Shown one piece after another: positions 862-58,700 of a stretch of DNA of 64,000 nucleotides. The stretch is from Acrasis kona (taxonomy: Eukaryota > Heterolobosea > Eutetramitea > Acrasida > Acrasidae), in assembly GCA_026419775.2 (NCBI GenBank), contig JAOPGA020001789.1, positions 62,001-126,000 on the forward strand, read 5' to 3'. Numbering within the stretch: position 1 is the stretch's first letter; each line of letters begins with the position of its first letter. The notes under the pieces were generated by a model. The model saw only the letters and a program-made list of their open reading frames with translations, was not told the DNA's origin and did not search any database. Made by a program: the position numbers and the translations under genes.

Positions 862-1918
862 ATGAACACGTTTAACGGGGTAAGGATTGATACCTTCCAA
901 AGACAATATAGAGTTTATTCAGGAGCATTTTGTGGGAAGAGTCACATAGATAATGGAGGAAAAAGTAAATAATCAACGTTTCTTGATACTAACATCTGAT
1001 CAGTAATTCTTCCCACCTCGGCTCTTGACGAGATTGCAAGACTCAATATCGTATATCCAATGTTGTTCAAGATAACAAACAACAAACACAGCACCCACAC
1101 CCATTGTGGAGTACTTGAGTTCTCTGCAGAGGAGGGCAGAGTGTACATACCGTTCTGGATGCAGGTATGATTTAAATGAAAGGTCACGCCATTAATGACT
1201 TAAATAGGAACATTTACGTTTAAATCCTGGACAAATGGTCACAGTAACGAGCGCCACTTTGCCCAAGGGAACATTTGTAAAACTAAGGCCACAGCAAAAG
1301 GCGTTCATAGAGGTCAGCGATCCGAAAGCAGTTTTGGAACAAAAGTTGAGGAACTTTTCATGCCTCACAAAGGGCGATACAATCATGATCAACTACAACA
1401 GCCAGAACTATTTGATCGACATTACAGAAGTGGCCACGCCAAGCGGCCAATGTAGCGCCGTTAGTATTGTAGAAACTGATGTTAGCGTGGAATTCGAGCG
1501 TCCGCTGGACATGCCTCCAAGTCCAGTCAAAACTGCACCCACCGAAGATGTGTTCCAAATTCCAATTCCAGTCAAGAAAAAGAAATCACAAGAGAAGGAG
1601 GAGGAAAAGGAGGAACCCAAATTTGTACCCTTCCAAGCAGGTGGTAGGAGACTGGATGGGAAGAGCATCAAGATGGGAAGCAGTCCACCAGTCAAACAAG
1701 GAGTGCCTCCACCCGCTGAGACCAAACCTGCACCCACCACCACCACCACCACACAACCACCATCGACAGGTGGAGGAGGAATGGTATTTGGAAGCAGCAA
1801 AAAAACACCTTCCACTACATCGACGACTGCTGCGAAACCACCTGTAAAGAAGGAGGAGGAGAAGCCTCAAGAAAAAAAGTTTAATGCATTTTCAGGTCAA
1901 GGCAGATCATTAAAATAA
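862..1918 (+). CDS. UFD1: Ubiquitin fusion degradation protein 1 (UFD1)
   Basis: Cofactor that, with NPL4, directs the Cdc48/p97 ATPase to ubiquitinated substrates (ER-associated and chromatin-associated degradation). Spliced from exons 862-964, 1004-1164 and 1208-1918 (introns 39 and 43 nt), giving 324 residues against about 307 in human. The N-terminal double-psi barrel is complete: [50 protein letters not shown]. The linker ([30 protein letters not shown]) follows, then a low-complexity K/E/P/T tail. Two p97-binding SHP-like boxes are visible: [11 protein letters not shown], and FSGQGRSLK at the extreme C-terminus. The ATG at 862 begins the homologous region directly. The stop codon is separated from the convergent RME-8 stop codon by only 5 bp. 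Confidence 0.95.
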
Positions 1919-1923
1919 AAAAT

Positions 1924-4900
1924 TTAATCGTCCCATTCATCTTCGTTTTCATCTTCTTCGTCTTCCTTGTGATCAATCTTGGACATGGCCGCAAATAATG
2001 GATTGACAGAGTTCGATGGTCCTCGTGGTCTTGATTTTGGTTTGTCAGGATTGCTTACTTTTCGTAGAACTGTTCCTCTTCTGATGCTGCTTAGCAAATC
2101 ACCTGCGTCTTCGAGTACCTCTGGTCTCTTGATGTTGGGAGCTCCTGTTGGTGGTGGCGGTGGACCTGAAGATGGCGGCGGCGGCGGTGGACCAGAGGAT
2201 GGTGGCGGTGGTGGTTTTGGTGTAGCCATTGATGGAGGAGGTGGTGTAGCCATTGGTGGCGGTGGAGGAGGAGGTGGAGGACCTGAAGATGGCGGTGGAG
2301 GAGGTGGAGGACCAGAAAATTGAGCCACTGGAGCAATTTGAGGTGTTGGTGTAGGTACATTTGGTAATGTTTTGGGAGATGGAGGTTCAGGTAAATTAAC
2401 CGACTTCTGAGCAGCTGCTTTAGGGGTGGGAGGTAAAACTACCGGAGATTGAACCGGAGGGGGTGGATTCGACACCAATTGAGGAGGTGGCGGTGGCAGA
2501 ACAGTAGAAGGCGTCGGAGGCAAATTCGACCCGCTTGGCGTCTTTTGCAACACTGGCAATGGCTTACTACTAGACCTCTGTCTATTCAATGCTACTGGTG
2601 GAATTTGACTAGGTGGTTGTTCGTTCGCATCGCTAGCAATCACCACAGGCACAACAACTCTCGACACAGTGGGCACGTGTTTCACTCTAGTCACGTACCT
2701 ACCCTGATGATCCACTTCGCTAAGTGCAGGCAACATGGGCGCATTATCTTGAGGCAACACCACACCAGCATACTCCCTCCAATCCTCCTCTCTAGGAACC
2801 AACACCTGACTATAAAAGTCGGCCCCCATACAAGGCATCGTGACTCATCACCTTGATCACCTGTGCAGCCTTAACCTGACAGTTTTTATTATCCATGCCG
2901 TGCATCACGTTATCAAACAAAAAGTCATGTTTGTTAGCTTGTATCAGCGCTCTGACGCTGACGCTGCTCCTTCTCGTGATGCTCAACAACACGTACAAAT
3001 AGCTCTCGGTGATGTCAGGCATGCACTGCATCTGATCAAACACGTTCAACACCAAATTCCTTTCGTTTATTTTATTAATAACTTGAACGTTTTCTTTACA
3101 AATTAAATACAGAATGTGTAGACTGCTCAACACCGAATCTATTAATACCTTTTCCTTCTCCAAGACGCCAATCAAGATGACGACAAAGTCACCAGGAAAG
3201 TGCAACATGTTGGGTTGATTGGTTATTAATAGATAGATGCTCTTGAGTATGACCAAACTCTGATCGGATGCAATTCCCTCCTTTTCTTGATAAGCGGCTA
3301 TTAGGCTCGTCAAGAAATGATCAGGGTTGACCACTTGGTATTTTGAATGTTGTGGTTGGTTGTACATTCTCAAGTAAATACCACCGGCCATCAATTCGTT
3401 CCTCGTGGCTTCATATACGAGTGCAGAATGTCCCAATCTATAAATAATTTCTTGGTTGACCGAAGTCAACCATGGCGACAAATACGACTTTAAATATTGA
3501 CGCAATTGTTCTCTCATGCCATTCTGCCAGATCATATCTGGCCTCTCGTGTAATGTTTCGAATGCAATTACCGATTGAGTGCATCCTTGACTCTTATCTA
3601 ATTTGAATCGTTTGTATGAGAGGTGGAGGTAACACGTGTACCAAACACGGCTCCAATGTTTGATCTGATCCATTCATGCATTCTTGTAAAATGTAACTAG
3701 ATCGGGCGCGACATGAATCTCCGAAATTGTAAACGCCACAAAAGATCGATAGCAGCGCCAACATGACGCCCGAATGTGTTGAGATTGTCGATCAGCATGT
3801 ACCTTCGATCTACGATCATGAAAATTAAATTCAAAATGGATTCCAACGAGAATTGTGCGCTTTGATTGAGCGATTGAGTGAGGGTGCTCATGACGTATTT
3901 CATGGCGGGTACCAAATTGTAATCTAAATTTTCGCACATGAAATGGAAACATTTTGGATTGGATTCGCACATTTTCAAAAGAGTGAAACAAGCGTGGGAG
4001 TATCCAGCGTTGGATAATGTTTTGTTTTTTAACAAGTCGAACATTAATTGTAAATGTTGTGGTTGACTAGATAATTGTTCGATTAATTGTAAACAAGCGG
4101 CATGTTTGGTCAACAATAACATGATGCTCATGACCACCATGTCCAATTCATGACTCGATTTGGATTCTTGATTCGTAAAATTCAACAATGCAAATGCATA
4201 CTCGGATGCATTCAAAATGTTGAACGATCCGTTCGATTCGTTATAAATTCTCACAAACACATTTGCGATCACCATCTCATTCTTGATGTAATCATAAATC
4301 AAGTAATCATATTGCACCTTGTTATCGGAGTAATCCAATCGCTTCAGCTCGTTTCTATGAGTTTCGATGAAAAGCGACAGTTGACATCTCATTTCAGCAT
4401 TCCAAATCAAATGAGGATCGCAACAATCTTGATCATACATTTTAACAAAGTCCTGTGGTCTTTGTAAAGAATCACATAGTGGAATGGGTAACATTTTTTC
4501 GACATCTCTCTTTACGAAATCAACGTGATCGTTGTAAAGCCTGGATGCTTGGGAAATGGCCAACAAGAGAGCCAATGCATATTGACCATCGCCGAAGGGA
4601 TCTTTCTGACCCATAGTGATGGTCCTCAACAAGATATAACCCATACCATAATGCCACATCTTTAACAAGAAGAAAACATCTTCGTCGGATGTTGTGAAAT
4701 TCTTGATCAGCTCACATGCTAATTCATGAATCTTGCTTCTTTGTGGATCGACGTTACTGCTATCGATACAATGCATCAATATTCTTGGGAGCGATAAATC
4801 TTGTAAACAGCTCACCCTCACCACATCCAACCTGACGATATAAGTCAACAACATGAGCGTGTTGATGAACCACTCTAATTGGATCGGATCAGCATTGACT

Positions 4901-7900
4901 TCGCACGATCCATACGAACGAGAGAGTAACGATAAAATGATGACATGTCCCGAAAATTGATTTACTAATTGATTTGCATTTCCGCTGTTCATGACCCTTA
5001 ATAACACTTTGGTGCTCAATAAAATCAATTGGCTCCATTTCGAATCGGTAGATGAACAAGATGTGTTGTTGATGATTTGTAAACATTGTTGAATGGCATC
5101 ATAGTCGTGTTTGAAATTAATCTTTTCGAATAACAATAATTGCACCCTTAATAACACTTCCAAATGATCCGCTTGTAATTCGTATGATGTTGATTGTGGA
5201 TCCACAAATGTGATTTGATTAAATTGTTGAATCACTTGATGCAACACGTGCAATTCGTTGAGAATTACAAATAATTGATGTTGTGGTAATAACAACGTGG
5301 ATAGATAATATCCAGCTACATATAGTTCGTTCTCTACGTCAGGATATACCACCTTGTATCGATCCATAAATGATGATGACGATTCGATCTTATCATTTAC
5401 CCATTCATTTACTTGTGAATGTAAATGTTGTCTCATGGATTCGTTCCAAATCAAATCAGGTCTCATTGTTTCGGAATTGAACAATTCACAGAATGATTCT
5501 GGCGATTGATTCGAATCACAAAGTGATTTGATCAGTGGATCGGGTAGTAATTGAGATAAGTATTCCTTGTTTTGATCCACGCAGCTCGATTGCAAAAAGC
5601 GAGCGATTGCTGGGGTCATGGTCGCGCTCTTGTAGAAGCAATACAAGTAAATTCCAGTTTCATGTAACGAATGTAACAAATCTTTGGCAATGCAACATAA
5701 AGTGGCCAATAGATTTGCGGTGGCATTTCTCACATTGACATCGTTCGAAATCATGCATAGTACAATGTGATGGAGGTAATCAGGATGGGATAACAACAAC
5801 GTGACCACTTTGGGTAATGGCAATAGAATTTGACCCTGTTTTAGATTTCTCATTCTGAATCGACACAAACTGGCCAAGATTTGAATCACGCTCATTCTGA
5901 TTTGATCCTGATCCGAATCAGAATCGTTCGTCGGTCTTAAATGTAACATGAAGGATGGAATCATTCCTTGATGCATCGCGTCCATGTTAATGTCGTCATC
6001 CAACAAGTGACCGACCAATATGATGACTTGTTTGGTGACGTTCATGTGCATGCTTAATTTGGTCATGTGAGCGATCAAATTATTCAAATGCGGAAATGCA
6101 ATGTTTTTGGATCGCAAGTAGTGGTGAGCCACTCGATCCATCGCCTTCACGATCATGATTTGTACCGGAATGTCTTGATCGGGTTTGGATTGCATCATGA
6201 TTAATTTATAATACAATTCCTTGATCAACATGCACGCATCGTCCACCTTACACATTTTTTCGTCATTCACCAACAAGTCCAAATAATAAAATTGTATCTT
6301 GAAATGTGAATCTAAACTGGGGTAATTCACTTTGAATTCTTCGTGATTCCAAATGTGATGTCTGTCCGGAAATCTCGATTTCATTTGATCCAGCGCTCGA
6401 ATCTGATGTACCAGTTCCGATCGTAGTTCTTGCATCGTCGTTTCGTTCCATATCACTCTTGCGTTGGTTTGCGGGAAATGCAATCTTTCTAAAATTAGAT
6501 CCCATTGATCCGTCCTCTTGACCACTTGTACCGCTTTTTGTTTCTTACGTACGAGACCAGTGATGGATTGTGGGCTCGCTAACGAGATGGACTGTGGACT
6601 GTTCAGTGGTTGTTTATTGTTGCTGGTCGACTGAGAATCTTGTAAACGTGCATCTTGAACGAATGGACGTGGCAACATGCACTCGATCACTTTGATGGCG
6701 GGTTGATGGAAACTGATCAATAAATCGGCCATGCGTAAGCTGGATGCTCTTTGTAATGGACAATTACAAAACAAGGATTCGTGAATGTGATAAATCAAAA
6801 TGCCATTCATCAACATTTCTTCCTTCAAAGTGGCCGAGTTTACTTTGGCGCTGCCGTGCACCACGCTGATGGTTTGTTCGTCTGCGCTCATGATGTGGAT
6901 TAACAAGGACGTGCAAATTAGCATGGTGGAGATTGATTGATTCCTGCACAACGTGTATAACTGTTTACGTAGCTGAATGCAAACCAAGATCAAAGTTTTG
7001 TAAACTTCTTGGTTATTTTTAGATTTCAAAATGCGATCGAAACATTTTAATGTGTGATTGATGGTCATGATGAATTGTTGATCGAATGTTAAAAGTTCTA
7101 ATTTGCGAAGTGATTCGGGAGCGGTTATTTTTGGAATCAAGTAATTTTGTAAAGCGATTTCTGCTTTGTCCGATTTGGTGTGCTTGCTCATGAGTTCCAA
7201 TAATGTTAAACTGGAGAAGAATCGAACTCCCGTATCTGATATTTCGAACAAACACTTGATCACGTAATCTAATCCCTTATTATCTTTTGCTTCCTCGATT
7301 ACGTTCTTGTTGAATAATGTCTTGTGAATGGCAGATAAACACATTTGAATGTGATGATTTCGACGACCTTGACCTTCTTCGATGATTTTGATTAAAAGTT
7401 TGGTGATCGATCTAAAGTGACTTTTTTCAATGTATGTTGGTGCGATGGCATAACTCGAAATGAATTCTCCAATCACTAACATGGAGTCCTGATCACTGAG
7501 CGTGTCGACGTGAGATAATTGTTTCATTAGTGATTCTGCATATTCTTCTCTTGGTAATTCCGATAAGTTGGAATTGGGTCCACCTTCTCTGATGCCTCTC
7601 CATATGGGTTCAATGTTGACGGGAAGTACTGCATTGTTGATTTCCATGCTAAGCATGTTGTCTTGTTGACTGGGAGTGAGAGGTGTCGAAGGTGTAGTGA
7701 ATGGTTGTGATCCTGTTGAAGGCGTTCCTAATGGAATGTTTCCTGTGCGTGAATAGAGTTCGATGAGGTCCAACAATACATTTTCTCTGTCGTTAGAAAA
7801 GTATTTGTAAATGTGATCATTGTTGTACTCGATACCAAACATTTTAGAATCGTTTGGATACCTCACCAGGCAGAAAATGTCGCTAATTTTGTGTACGGCA

Positions 7901-8804
7901 TGTACCAGGTTGGTTTGGGTGTCCTTATCGATGATGTATTCCTGACCAAAGCACAATGTGCGTCTCCTGGTCTGATTTTTAGTTTCAAAAGTTGATAAAG
8001 TACTTACTAGAACACTGTCTTCATCTTGTTTGATTCTGTCGACAGAGTGGCTGGTGAGGTGTAGCTCATTCAATAAGGTATTTCTCTCCCGAAGGCGGAC
8101 GATGCTGTCTTCTGTCACCTCCTCTACCTGCATCTTTTCAACTCCAAGAAGCTCAACAGCGTTGCATAGCGCTAAACATAATTGTCTGGCGTCGTTGTTG
8201 ATGAAGTGATGAATTCTTGATGAATTCTTATATAAAATGCAAACAGTATTAGTGTTGTTTTTGACGATGTATAATCTATCAACATCCATCAAGTCGTAAG
8301 TTGATTTGTTCTTCAAAGTCGTAACGTCCTTCTTTATCAAACTAGCGCCAGTTATAAGAAGTTCATAATCAACCCTTTGGTTGCTTTTTGTAAGCTTAGT
8401 TGCGTAAAAACGCTTAATGTCCTTAGGTGGACTCATACGATACAAATGCGACAAAAGTCGGGCTCTATTCGCGCTAGTGAACGTTTCTTTTTGTACTTTC
8501 GTCTTTTTATATTGCAACGTGAAATCATCCTTCTTCTTGGCGTCTAAAGGTGTGAGCTACATTAAAAATCCATATGAATTATACAAACCAAGAGATATAT
8601 TTGTTATCGAAGAGTAATCAACCTCTAATTTGAGACTCTTCGCTCCCTGTACTGTAAAGTCGTGTACTTCAACACTATGCTCGTTAATTTCAGAAAAGTG
8701 GGTGTAAAATACCTCTTTGGGGTTAAATTCATGATCCTCTTAGATTTTCCAATGAAAGCATGCTGCAGTACAAAGTACTTGCCCAGCAAGTTTTCGTTGC
8801 TCAT
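1924..8804 (-). CDS. RME-8: RME-8 (DNAJC13)-like endosomal protein lacking the J domain, with C-terminal WH2-acidic (VCA-like) tail
   Basis: RME-8 is a peripheral early-endosome protein that normally recruits Hsc70 through a J domain and regulates WASH-dependent sorting tubules. Exon 1 is 8589-8804 and the intron is 8544-8588 (45 nt); the rest is one long coding stretch (~2,270 residues). The start MSNENLLGKYFVLQHAF aligns with the family's N-terminal PH-like region. All four family repeats are present: VIWNETTMQEL (~6440), LIWNESMRQHL (~5445), LIWNAEMRCQL (~4400), MIWQNGMREQL (~3530). The GYF_2 domain between repeats 1 and 2 and the J domain between repeats 2 and 3 are absent; the flanks of the J site (ENELYVAGYYLSTL ~5310; HLEVLLRVQLLLFEKI ~5160) are joined by a ~40-residue linker. 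After the normal RME-8 end come long proline runs (~2140-2560), a WH2-like DLLSSIRRGTVLRKV and an acidic end DEEDENEDEWDD. Four one-base frame breaks (near 8722, 3705, 3610, 2826) lie at or next to short homopolymers and look like sequence errors, though decay cannot be excluded. Confidence 0.85.
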
Positions 8805-17255: not shown

Positions 17256-19811
17256 ATGAAAACAGTATCACAACAAGTGCTCTCCAAAACAACGGTTGCA
17301 AAGTTGAAGGAAATTAAAAGACAAAGAGAGTTCTTGGAAAAACACTACGATGATGTGCTATCCGATGCTGACAAACAAAGTTCCAAACAACGTGAACTAG
17401 GGGTACTTCATGAAGGAATCAAGAAGGTTAAGGACCACCATAAACATTTTCGTGATATAGACTACGTTGAGCTCCAAATGAAAAGACCATGTTTTTACGG
17501 TGGGGATGGAATATCCAGATGGACCGTCAAGCTAAGAAAAGAAATAAAGAATGGCAGAAGAAGACAATTCCAAACCAAATTGTTTTGCAGCGTCTTGGAA
17601 GAGTGGTTGAGGAACACAACCGAAGAAAGCTCATGGGTTGAAGTAACAAGCGAGAAAGTTGTCAAAGAGAACAACTCCAAGTTGACCGAGCTCATTGACG
17701 CTGCATTCGCAACACCGAACAAGGACTACACAGAGAGCACTCTAGAAGCATTCTCCAAAATATTCAACGACTATGAATTATCATCCATTGTTCATTACAC
17801 TTCTACTAAAGATGATGCCCTCAAACAAAAAGTAACCAAAAAAGAAGTCGTGGCTGCCATCAAGAACAGTATCATCAAGGGGCTCATTACCAACGCCACC
17901 ACTTCTCGAGAGCTACAAATTCTGTGCGATGATGATTTGACCGTTGGAGAATTGTCAGATCTAATGAGCATCAAACTTTAAGACATTGAAAATTGGAATT
18001 GGAAATTAGATGGAGATTCGCCACCTGCATTTCGCTTTGAGAAATTCTCGAATGGAAAGATTAGATACTTTGTGACAGCCGAGTACCTCGATATCTTATT
18101 CTTACAAATCATTGGGACGCGTATTGGTGTATTGGTAAAATCTAGTTTGAAAAATGCATACTTGAGTAGTGGATGCTACTCTACGAGTATTTACCGCAGC
18201 ATCACAAACGGTCACTTCTTGTCTCTTTTACCAGACAATGTTTGTGAGGTTGAGACCGATATGTATCAGAGAACAGAGAGAGAAGAAGAAAGGGACTCGG
18301 AGGAGGCCTCCGAGAACACAAATGACATTGATTTGATGGCAAAGAAAGATATTTTAAGACTTGTTAATCGTCATTTGGGTCATGCTAGGGTAAAGTCTCC
18401 TGCTGAGGGTATGGTGGTACTATCTACTGACATTCATGACTTTAGCAACGGCTTGCCACACTCTACAATCCTCTCAGTGATGGATAAATTTGGTTTTGGT
18501 GACCATCTTGATTTTTTTAAAAAGTTTCTAAGCGTGAAAATAAAATATAATGAACGAGAGGGCAATGTTGCAAGAGGTGCACCTCTTCGATATGCACTAA
18601 CTGATGTTTTTTGTGAATGTATCATGTTTGTTTTAGATTATCAAATGAATAGGTTATCCGATATGTCAATAGTGTCGCAAGATGATCCATTGGAGCTATT
18701 TAGATGTTGCGATGATACTTACATGTTATCAAAGTCCTCTAAAACTATTTCTAAAGCCTTTAAGCAATACTCATCCACTTTATCTGCATTCGGAATGAAA
18801 ATAAATGAAAAAAAATCTGGTTGTTGTATAATTAACTTTCCTCGTGGTACACTTCAAAATAATACCACCTACTTTAATGCATTTTTTAATAGAAGTGAAC
18901 AAAACCAAATCAAAGATCCTCTTCCAAGACCTAATATTGATGAGAGTGATTTAAAGGGTATTGTACCGCACAATGACGTGTGTTGGGGATTTTTGAAATT
19001 ACATGAAGATGGTTATTTTAGAGTGAATTCAGTCAAGTTTAATGAATTTAAGAACACAATGATCGAAAAGGTCAAATCTGGTTCTTCGTTAATGAAGCAA
19101 GTGAATGTTTATAATAGTCAGTTAAAGGTATTGGACATGTATGTTGGTAAGGGAGCTGACATTAATGACTGGTTCTATAATGATTCAGTATTAAATGCTT
19201 ACGAGGACATTCATGCACACTTTGGTGACGAAAGTTCATTAGAGTACTTTAAAAGAGTCATTAAGGAAAAGTTCCTTGGTGAATCCAAAGTAGATGTGAT
19301 GGAGGCATGGGCGTATTGGCCAGTCACTGCAGGTGGATTGGGACTCACTCATGCATTAATCGAGCCCTTTATAAACTATCACCATCAAGTTCAGGATTAT
19401 CAAGTGCAAATCACAATTGTACCGAAAGATTGGTGCCCTATTCGCAGACGCAATATGAATGTTAGGGAGATTAAAGAAAAGACTGGAGGAGATCCCAATG
19501 CCGAAGCGATATCATGGACAAATGAAGAGGAAGCGGAGAGGGTGTGGACGTATTGGAAGAATTTTGGAGTATTAGCTGGAGGAAAACATGATCTCGACCC
19601 ACCGCATACTGCCGAATTTGACAAACTAGTTGCCATGTTCTGTAGCAGAGGAAGCGAGATGAGACAGTCCGGACAGAGCAACTTGAGTACATACTGGAAG
19701 TGGATCGTATTTAACTATTCTGATCAAGTCTTGAGTACTTTTGGAAGTTTGGAATTTGCATCTGCTGGTTCCATTCCAATTAATCTCATTTTGAGCACAA
19801 AGAGGGGATAA
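17256..19811 (+). CDS. rvt: rvt-type (domesticated, non-mobile class) reverse transcriptase, one in-frame TAA at 17979-17981
   Basis: Reverse-transcriptase-related cellular gene of the rvt class described from fungi, some plants, rotifers and bacteria. The frame is open for 852 codons with a single TAA. Residues 1-241 form a basic helical N-terminal region. Catalytic motifs after the TAA: motif A VVLSTDIHDFSNGLPHSTIL, then VMDKFGFGDHLDFFKKFL typical of rvt; motif B ARGAPLRYALTDVFCE; motif C LFRCCDDTYMLS with the DD pair; motif D FGMKINEKKSG. The C-terminal block TYWKWIVFNYSDQVLSTFGS, then SIPINLI, matches the conserved rvt C-terminus. No long terminal repeats, inverted repeats, integrase or RNase H were seen nearby. 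The TAA may be a real nonsense mutation, a read-through site or an error; protein-like sequence continues in the same frame straight after it (DIENWNWKLDGDSPPAFRFE). Confidence 0.85.
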
Positions 19812-55785: not shown

Positions 55786-58700
55786 TTATTTAAAATATTC
55801 ACTAACATGATCTCCACCACCATGCTCCTGTTGCTGCTGCTGCTGCTGCATTGGCATCTGACGCTGCTGATGGAACTGAAATTGTTGCATACCTTGTTGT
55901 TGCTGATGTTGAATTCTTTGTAAATTTCCATTCTGCTGCAATTGTTGATTATGATTTACAAATTGAAAACGCGTGTTGGGATTATTGTTGTTCGCATATG
56001 GATTCGCATTATTCAACAAACCCATCATGGTAGTTGGCATGGGCGGTGGTGCCACTTGCCTATGACCCTGCTGTTGATTATTCGCGCCATAGTTCAAAGG
56101 AACGTGATGCATACTCGTGCCCTGCACAATCGCTCTGTTCAATCCACCACCACCATTTCCTCCAACATTGACGTGATGATGACTATTACTGCTCTGCTGT
56201 AGTTGCTGTATCAATGGGTGATTCACCATTCCCTGTTGCTGTTGTTGTGGTTGATGAATGAATAAATTGGTATTGTGTTGAGGCGTTATTGTGGTATTGG
56301 TATTTGTGGCAGCGTTAAATCCACCGCCCATGTTCCATTGGAATATAGGAGGTGCATGTGCCATGTTACCCTGCGATAGGTTGTATAAATTAATTTTACT
56401 ACCACCAGCGGACATGACTCCAGTGTGTGGTATTTGTTTTTTATTAAACCTTGGAGCGGTTGATTTCTTCTTCCTACCTCTTTTGCCACGATGATCGTCA
56501 TCGTCGTCATCTTCATCATCTTCGTCTTGATCATCGTCGTCTTGGTCCTCTTGTGATGAATACTTTGCATCTTCGTCATCGTCGTCATCTTGTTCCTCTT
56601 CGATATGATAATCATCATCATCATCATCAGATGCAGCATTTGCTTTGTACTCTTCGTCTTCATCTTGATCAGCGCTCTTCTTTTTCTTTTTAGAAGACGA
56701 CGACGATGATGATGATTTCTTTTTTGACTTTTTAGATTCTTCAGGTTCATCATCTTCATCGTCCTCCGATAGGTGCTCCAATTCTGCATAAGACGTTCTG
56801 TTTTTCAAACCTCTCGATGATCGAGTGCGACTTGCTGGCGTCGTGTTATCCTCTGGTGGTGGTGGTGGTGGCGTTGATTGTTGAGGCGTGAATGGCAATT
56901 GGTGAATGGTAGATGATGATTTGGTGGGTGTGTTCATGAACATGGGAGATGATTGTGTTAATAGTGTTAACATTGATGTTGTGCCGTGTGGTTGTGTTGG
57001 TGGAGTGAATAACATTGAATTGGGCATGGGTGGTGGTGGCACTCTGTTAGGCGTTCTCATGTTGTTGTTGTTGTTATGATGAATCAACGAAGAAGCAGCA
57101 GAGGGTAGTGGTGGCAATGATGGATGATGGTTGTTGTTCATGGGCGAATACACTTGGATGGGATTGTTGGGATTGGTGGATGATTGGAATGATTGTAGTT
57201 GCTGTAACTGATATTGTTGTTGCTTCAACATGATCATTTCGCGTTGCTTGTTTTGTTCTTGTAATTGCTTAGCTCTTTCTGCTTCTTGTTGCTCTCTCTT
57301 TTTTCTTGCTGCTAATTCTCTTGCCTCGTTCTCTGCTTGTTGTTTGGATCTCTCCATTTCTCTCTCCATTGCATAGGCCTCAATGTTTGGAATGAACGTG
57401 TCTCTGATTTGATCTGCAATCGATCGCTCCGATTCGAATTCCGAATCTTGCATCTTGATCACTAATTCCTTAAAGTCATTCACTGTGGCACACAACACGC
57501 TCCATTTGCCGTTCTGTACAATCGTATTGTTGTCGTCGAAATTTAGATTGGCATCATTTACATCACGATGATGATGAACATCATCTTGATTTGATTCGAA
57601 TTGAACGGGTGCCTTTTCTAAAAATAACCTTCCGATCTCTTCTCCAAAGTACCATATTAAATCTCCGGTGCTCTCGAATTTTCCTAATGGAGCGATCCTC
57701 ATGGTGGTGTCATAATGTGTTCTAGAGTACTCGATCACTCTTTGGTTGGTATCGAATTTCCAATCCATGAGCGCCCTCAAGATGATCACCCTCCATGATG
57801 CATTTAAATTGTTGAAGTCACAATTGAAGAGCGGATTGGTCTGCCACAGCCAATACTTTGTTGGTAGGGACGTGATCTTGTTCTTGAGGATGCTCATCCA
57901 CGTCGTGTTGGATTCGTCAATGTATGATAATGATTTGCGATCGATGGCTGGTCCTTTGATGACCCTGATGCAAATGTCGGATATGAGCTGATTGTATTTG
58001 GAGGGATTGAGCATTGCTGATTCAAAGTCTTGTGCGTCAAACTCTGATATTTTTAATATGGGTCGTAGTAATTTACAGCAGTAGCAAACGTAGGCGAACT
58101 CCCACATGTTGCGTAACGTTTGTGTTTCTTTTATAGTGTCTCTTGGGATGTTTGCATTGTTGTTGTTGTTATTCGTCATCATCTATCATGTTATGTTTGA
58201 AGGTGAGTGAGTGACTTACGCTGAAAGGATTGTGAATGTTGAGGTTGGGATCAGCATTGTATTGTTTGTACACTTCGCCCATTCCATCATGTCCGTTATA
58301 GACTGGAATGTTCCATTGTGGACACCTGCTTTGATAATTTTGAATGTCCGGTAGCCTTCCACGCGAAACACCAGGATAGGCGTTTGGAGGTTTGAATTGT
58401 TGTTTGATGGCTTCCCGTTGAGCCTCTGATAGATTAGAGTCGTCGTCAGGATTCTTTGGCTTTCTTCCCTTTTTGCGTGGAGTCTTGACCTCTGTGTCCT
58501 CTTCTTCCTCTAATAATTCATAATCAGTTTCATTAACCTTGACACCGTCATCTTGATAATCCTGGTCTTCATTTTCCTGTTTTGTTTTTGATAGTTTCCT
58601 CTTTTTGCTTTCTTTTTGTTGTGGTTGCGGGAGTTCAATTCCTGCAGCAATCATTGCTTCCTTCTCCTTTTTGCTCTTTCTTCCCCTCTTCTTCTTTACA

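Follow-up and report, generated by a model that had tools for sequence, protein, structure and literature searches.

J-domain-less RME-8 homologues joined to a putative VCA tail in Acrasis kona: nucleation-promoting factors of a probably new class

The window analysed here, a stretch of 64,000 nucleotides from contig C937 of Acrasis kona, carries on its minus strand a gene for a homologue of RME-8, a protein that in animals connects endosomal sorting to the control of actin. The main part of the RME-8 body lies in an unbroken frame of 1619 codons (3700-8556), which matches the Pfam model RME-8_N (PF19432) with 149.4 bits, and the body as a whole runs from 8556 to 2825, interrupted by single-base slips. 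Three of the four IWN repeats stand in the main frame, as RVIWNETTM (6433-6459), DLIWNESMR (5431-5457) and HLIWNAEMR (4387-4413). Homology departs from this frame at about 3775 and is picked up, by three-frame translation and by alignment to a related protein from a metagenome (P0001), in a second frame between two slips (3600-3776, HSGVMLALLSIFCGVYNFGDS...LPPPLIQTIQI) and then in a third (2825-3598), where the fourth repeat appears as IWQ (3512-3538). The four-repeat RME-8 body described in the first-pass annotation is thus present, with the qualification that its last repeat is a variant. A further coding region at the N-terminal end (MSNENLLGKYFVLQ..., 8560-8804, minus strand) is provisional: it was assigned by eye, from its similarity to the N-terminus of a published Acrasis protein discussed below (P0002), and its exon limits are uncertain, as an intron and/or an additional frame slip may be involved. 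Two other reading frames in the window may be mentioned here, a plus-strand frame of 609 aa (17982-19808) whose weak reverse-transcriptase match (E 2.1e-4) is below the cut-off and which is possibly a retroelement remnant, and a minus-strand open frame of 798 aa (55789-58182) for which Pfam (E up to 0.001) gave no match.

The body is followed, on the same strand, by the 3′-terminal open reading frame of the gene (1924-2844, 306 codons), in which proline runs, a WH2 motif, a helix resembling the central (C) domain of VCA regions, an acidic end and the stop codon succeed one another. The proline-rich region (2149-2520) consists of an upstream block (2428-2520) and a main block (2149-2316), the latter preceding the WH2 motif DLLSSIRRGTVLRKV (2056-2100; Pfam WH2, 20.8 bits, E 0.00029); then come the partial C domain NPLFAAMSKI (1975-2004) and the acidic end (1924-1965), made up of EDEEDENEDEWDD with its Trp (1927-1965) and the stop codon (1924-1926). 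The reading of this region as polyPro-WH2-C-A was upheld as regards order, and the proline runs, the WH2 motif and the acidic EDEWDD were all recovered in place. The 3′ end of the gene is fixed by its convergent neighbour UFD1 (1208-1918, plus strand; UFD1_N2, 112.9 bits), whose stop codon is only 5 bases away from that of RME-8. At the other end of the tail frame, the passage from body to tail is marked by a run of five G residues (GGGGG, 2823-2827) at which the frame slips, with homology to RME-8 on either side: YGADFYSQVLVPREEDWREYAGVVLPQDNAPM in the window corresponds to YGHTLEEKLTTDHGEIWEEYKEIQVPPPNMPL in P0001, and the homology ends within the tail frame at ADFYSQVLVPREEDWREYAGVVLPQDNAPML (2731-2823), which aligns to ...YGHTLEEKLTTDHGEIWEEYKEIQVPPPNMPLAESLL of P0001. 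That the tail adjoins the body on the same strand, as had been proposed, is correct, and homology continues between them, but the frame changes from body to tail, and three slips had gone unmentioned.

A second RME-8 gene is found on contig C440 (97,161 bases), and it presents the same architecture in a simpler form. One uninterrupted frame of 735 aa comprises the fourth IWN repeat, proline runs, a WH2 motif (20.6 bits), a complete C motif (LENDLFAAIGGRRGAI) and an acidic end (SDDSDFDD). RME-8_N matches the C440 protein with 119.5 bits, as against 149.4 bits for the window copy, and the two proteins are only 23% identical over their best stretch, so they must be regarded as old paralogues. Where compared, the C440 protein is 100% identical to P0002 (A0AAW2YZF7), which is listed by NCBI and UniRef as “DnaJ [Acrasis kona]”; this published gene model ends at a single-base slip in a TTTTT run of the C440 copy (around 3313-3332). 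The public entry is therefore called DnaJ although no DnaJ domain was found in it, and its end at the slip hides the tail. RME-8_N matches were obtained at these two loci only in the assembly searched, and neither this model nor a query with P0004, a relative described below, disclosed a third, J-bearing RME-8 locus in its 37.35 Mb; the published size of the genome is 44.02 Mb (PMC11589745), which leaves room for a missing third copy.

Three-frame translation and alignment to relatives place the slips of the window copy at about 3770-3780, at 3599-3606 and in the GGGGG run (2823-2827), and all three appear to run in one direction. Reads produced by 454 sequencing are prone to errors in single-base runs. 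The Acrasis assembly was made from 454 and Illumina reads (PMC11589745). The slips in the window are most likely errors of this 454-based assembly, and two other explanations for them appear much weaker. Three single-base slips within about 1 kb, and perhaps a fourth near the N-terminus, are what one might see in a decaying pseudogene, with C440 as the working copy; this is improbable, given that 1619 codons are open, that the frames are otherwise open between the slips, that the tail motifs are intact, and that an assembly containing 454 reads has a like slip in the TTTTT run of the C440 copy. The shared direction of the window slips could also be taken as a sign of programmed +1 frameshifting, by which a short tail-less RME-8 and a long tailed form would be made from the same gene. 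We give this very little credence: the last window slip and the C440 slip both fall in runs of five identical bases, the kind of site at which 454 reads tend to go wrong, and the C440 slip lies elsewhere in the protein, with no common slippery site to be seen.

Relatives were sought with a profile of three RME-8 bodies cut ahead of the proline region, and this tail-free search returned three proteins: P0001, P0003 (2275 aa) and P0004 (1944 aa). Since the query stopped short of the proline region, it exerted no selection for the tails seen in P0003 and P0004. P0003 contains, in one database protein, everything from the fourth IWN repeat through a WH2 motif and a C-like helix, ending ...GDLLAQIRAKKALKKV...NPLLAAIMAKQQAMNNK, and P0004 continues from the fourth repeat to an acidic end and so has the whole VCA in one protein (...GALLDSIVKGTTLKKA...LMDALAGALAARRTAM...DDDEEDDEWE). 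Both are known as protein records alone, possibly from one organism. P0001 (2106 aa), which gives the top BLAST score to the window copy, has no WH2 among its residues, and its record may break off at an intron or where a contig ends. A WH2 tail is therefore present in four of the five RME-8 homologues (window, C440, P0001, P0003 and P0004), three of these four also having an acidic end, while by a loose pattern all five have the four IWN repeats, with the variants IWQ (in the window copy), IWD, MWN, VWT, IWT and IWK. A tree of the five rows separates C440 and P0004 from the window copy, P0001 and P0003, a grouping that is weak because of a warning of long branches meeting. Searches of viral contigs yielded no relative of P0004, and the profile of the three bodies had no match among solved structures. 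The same fusion thus exists beyond the window, in the C440 paralogue and in P0003 and P0004, each of which joins RME-8 to a WH2 tail.

These proteins also bear on whether the tail might be a separate neighbouring gene or the product of an assembly join. The change of frame between body and tail would fit such a reading, as would the published C440 model, which ends at a slip of its own. We nonetheless rejected it as very improbable: the C440 fusion lies in a single frame, P0003 and P0004 are single database proteins, RME-8 homology runs across the GGGGG slip into the tail frame, and the UFD1 stop follows 5 bases beyond the end of the tail, so that the tail is not an artefact of a neighbouring gene. 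On the same grounds (the C440 frame, the two database proteins and the homology across the GGGGG run), the proposal that a regulator and an actin-nucleation tail are combined in one polypeptide stands, the nucleation itself being a predicted activity. RME-8 body and WH2/acidic tail almost certainly form a single polypeptide.

The tail has to be judged against the actin machinery that Acrasis encodes in any case. Its genome includes ARPC2, a subunit of Arp2/3, a WASP with WH1 and PBD, and a WASH that has its own VCA, together with strumpellin and SWIP. There is also a SCAR-like protein, for which Pfam gives no match and which we take to be SCAR from its similarity. On the endosomal side, where RME-8 binds SNX1 through its C-terminal half, there are two loci for VPS35 and three matches for Vps5-type sorting nexins (71, 52 and 28 bits); the model also matched in three bacterial controls, in each case below the cut-off. 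The FAM21 model had no match anywhere searched, the Acrasis genome included, which is no proof of absence. Replacement of WASH by the RME-8 tail was considered and rejected; with WASH, its VCA, strumpellin and SWIP all encoded, the tail would add to the WASH complex and not replace it. Several further loci came to light in this inventory. The N-terminal domain of WASH has one further, incomplete match (C530:57757-57903, 49 positions, 34.6 bits), perhaps a WASH fragment or pseudogene. An ankyrin-repeat protein (C855:8071-8397, minus strand; Ank E 5.7e-7) that carries proline runs and, at its C-terminus, a WH2-like motif and an acidic end, without a Pfam WH2 match at E up to 0.01, is another unusual putative Arp2/3 activator. 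A protein at C511:71236-71508 (plus strand), with 619 aa inside the locus, has what appears by eye to be a long coiled coil and, at its end, proline runs followed by a WH2, a C motif and an acidic terminus. Finally, near-identical proteins at C825:14123-14344 and C974:3036-3257, maybe one locus assembled twice, are exemplified by the C825 protein, which has an N-terminal LIM domain (48.4 bits) and a CAP C-terminal domain (193.1 bits), the CAP N-terminal domain not being listed.

The tails have low-complexity sequence, and taken singly the motifs all score modestly. None of the four RME-8 tails reaches the Pfam WH2 cut-off of 23.1 bits, and the WASP of Acrasis, at 20.7 bits, is below it too. 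The WH2 motifs were also tested against published residue classes (PMC3298513), with a linker of 3 to 12 residues: the window copy, with a 4-residue linker, and P0003 pass, C440 and P0004 pass only in a widened form, and Acrasis WASH fails even the latter. In 20,000 shuffles per tail, for which the WH2 pattern was made slightly wider than published so as to admit all four tails, the WH2 pattern arose once for the window tail, once for P0004 and never for C440 or P0003, and a WH2 together with an acidic end arose in none of the 20,000 shuffles of any of the four. The acidic end contains an aromatic residue in the window copy (EDEWDD), in C440 (SDFDD) and in P0004 (DDEWE); the end of P0003 is without one.

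The tail as a unit was compared with a VCA profile for which four Acrasis proteins (SCAR, WASP, the ankyrin protein and the coiled-coil protein) supplied the VCAs. The profile was run against 1,213 sequences, namely open frames of at least 40 aa in the DNA examined (which include the four training proteins) and the five RME-8 homologues. The window tail frame was matched over positions 3-64 of the 64 in the profile with E=3e-7, and the C440 frame with E=8.8e-7; for the joined full-length versions the values were 9.4e-6 and 2.8e-6, and for P0003 and P0004 they were 0.012 and 0.047. Among these 1,213 sequences the best unrelated one reached E=3; for Acrasis WASH itself the value was 4.2. Of the profile searches for WH2 and CA that had been suggested as a check, the VCA profile finds the tail at E=3e-7, and the Pfam WH2 model, at 20.8 bits, falls short of 23.1. 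Chains of solved structure were also compared (E up to 10): all six matches of the window tail are to WASP-family proteins or MIM, though weak (E 0.046 to 1.1), as are seven of the nine obtained for the C440 tail, whose best match, N-WASP at 5.1e-7, is summed over the tandem WH2s of that chain and whose two unrelated matches have E 0.28 and 6.1. On a possible origin of the tail from WASH the signs are mixed: the C motif of C440 (LENDLFAAIGGRRGAI) resembles that of Acrasis WASH (FMSDLFQKIQFRRKAI), but its short WH2 linker is of the WASP/SCAR type. Pfam revealed no WH1, SCAR, WASH WAHD or IMD domain in either Acrasis copy or in the relatives. Because Pfam misses the N-terminus of Acrasis SCAR as well, kinship with SCAR is excluded solely through the homology to RME-8.

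The C motif of the window tail is degenerate. The published pattern requires three hydrophobic residues spaced by three, a basic doublet and a hydrophobic residue (Kollmar 2012, PMC3298513), and it is passed by C440 and P0004 and failed by the window copy and P0003. NPLFAAMSKI of the window aligns with NDLFAAIGGRR of the C440 paralogue and NPLLAAIMAK of P0003; LFAAM is kept, but the window motif has no hydrophobic residue at the third spaced position and no RR/KK doublet. The short helix LFAAMSKI recorded in the first-pass annotation is accordingly a C domain in its hydrophobic part, but a partial one that does not conform to the published pattern, and with no basic doublet the Arp2/3 activity of the window copy is less certain than that of C440. 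It is important to stress that the test is strict: when the pattern is slightly relaxed, SCAR and the ankyrin protein of Acrasis fail it all the same, and its WASP, WASH and coiled-coil protein pass. A tail that binds actin monomers or profilin-actin without activating Arp2/3, at least in the window copy, so that the roles of the two Acrasis copies would be split, is consistent with the loss of the third hydrophobic residue and of the doublet that C440 and P0004 possess; it is an unlikely reading, though one that deserves some weight. Against it, the window copy has retained the acidic end with its Trp, and the full C pattern is also failed by Acrasis SCAR and the ankyrin protein. We prefer the reading of the tail as a VCA, more firmly for the C440 type than for the window copy.

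The second respect in which these proteins depart from the known RME-8 concerns the J domain. The DNAJ domain is a highly conserved feature of RME-8, and four IWN repeats define the protein (Norris et al. 2022, PMC9642905). No match to DnaJ (PF00226) was obtained in any of the five homologues (E up to 10 for the window and C440 copies, up to 1 for the others), and no DnaJ domain was found between IWN2 and IWN3 of the window copy. In the Acrasis genome as a whole there are 37 DnaJ matches, none of them on the window contig or on C440. An HPD triplet does occur, at residue 924 of the window copy and 857 of the C440 protein, between IWN1 and IWN2, which is not the position of the J domain. With no DnaJ match, the window protein is best described as an RME-8 homologue and not as a DNAJC-type J protein; the missing domain had been overlooked at first, and the predicted protein is not simply animal RME-8 with a tail added. 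Weakened J domains are already known in RME-8, since a figure legend in the same paper reports that key DNAJ residues are mutated in certain species (PMC9642905). In human DNAJC13, whose major known partners are FAM21, SNX1 and HSC70, the J domain and the disordered C-terminus each oppose endosomal localization (PMC12404652). The two regions that act in this way are the two that are altered in the Acrasis proteins.

Comparison with known systems helps to define what is new. Like RME-8/DNAJC13, the Acrasis protein has RME-8_N and four IWN repeats, followed by a C-terminal region that is expected to be disordered; it differs in that no DnaJ domain was found and that its C-terminus carries proline runs, WH2, a C-like helix and an acidic end. 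With WASP, SCAR/WAVE and WASH it shares the plan of a family-specific N-terminus, a proline-rich region and a C-terminal WH2-C-A, but its N-terminus is that of RME-8, with no WH1, WASH or IMD domain found, and Acrasis encodes WASP, SCAR and WASH separately. A further analogy is WAML (IMD plus VCA; Kollmar 2012, PMC3298513), in which a membrane-associating module is likewise joined to proline runs and a VCA; there the module is an IMD domain, reported from Entamoeba species (PMC3298513), whereas the Acrasis module, with about 1,900 residues, is the body of RME-8. The RME-8-FAM21-WASH connection of animals concerns the same compartment and pathway, but through separate proteins, where Acrasis has one polypeptide. 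In the literature searched, which left subscription papers and preprints mostly outside, no RME-8 or DNAJC13 with a WH2 or VCA tail was found, and the view that the arrangement is undescribed thus stands within that literature. A paper pairing RME-8 with WH2 discusses, in the passages covered, the VCA of WASH and names RME-8 in its references only; the literature searched had nothing on RME-8 in Naegleria, or on Acrasis together with Arp2 and WASP. The accessible main text of the WASP-family survey (PMC3298513) has no word starting with RME or DnaJ, that of PMC5461030 none starting with RME, and that of the Acrasis genome paper (PMC11589745) none starting with WASP, Arp2 or actin.

Taken as a whole, the domain assignments point to a real and apparently undescribed domain architecture, shared by two old paralogues and their database relatives, which would probably place RME-8-VCA among the nucleation-promoting factors as a new class. 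The proteins can be seen with good confidence as J-domain-less RME-8 homologues whose disordered C-terminus became a VCA-type activator of Arp2/3, and Arp2/3 activation on endosomes is probable for at least the C440-type proteins, less so for the window copy taken alone. Location on endosomes, binding of actin and activation of Arp2/3 are in each case inferred from domain content. Animal RME-8 binds PI(3)P, SNX1 and FAM21 (PMC12404652), and on this model several steps can be envisioned: the N-terminal region, whose counterpart in RME-8 is PH-like, would attach to endosomal PI(3)P, and sorting-nexin and retromer partners would bind to the IWN solenoid, both as in animals; the proline runs may take up profilin-actin or SH3 proteins; the WH2 motif would hand over an actin monomer, and the C and acidic end would engage Arp2/3. 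Branched actin would then form directly at the RME-8 microdomain with no need to recruit WASH, and sorting would be coupled to tubule-pulling actin within one molecule, while loss of the J domain would abolish the recruitment of Hsc70.

The broadest form of this proposal, somewhat less secure than its parts but still favoured, is that J-less RME-8 with a VCA represents an ancient, undescribed class of Arp2/3 activator that nucleates branched actin in Acrasis and other organisms in parallel to WASH, the tail predating the split of the Acrasis paralogues. In animals, separate proteins connect RME-8 with sorting nexins, Hsc70 and the WASH complex, and there is no settled view of the way in which these activities work together. 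A lineage that has fused the RME-8 scaffold to a putative Arp2/3-activating tail and dropped the J domain would be a natural experiment on this question, and the fusion argues that control of actin, besides uncoating, may be a core output of RME-8.
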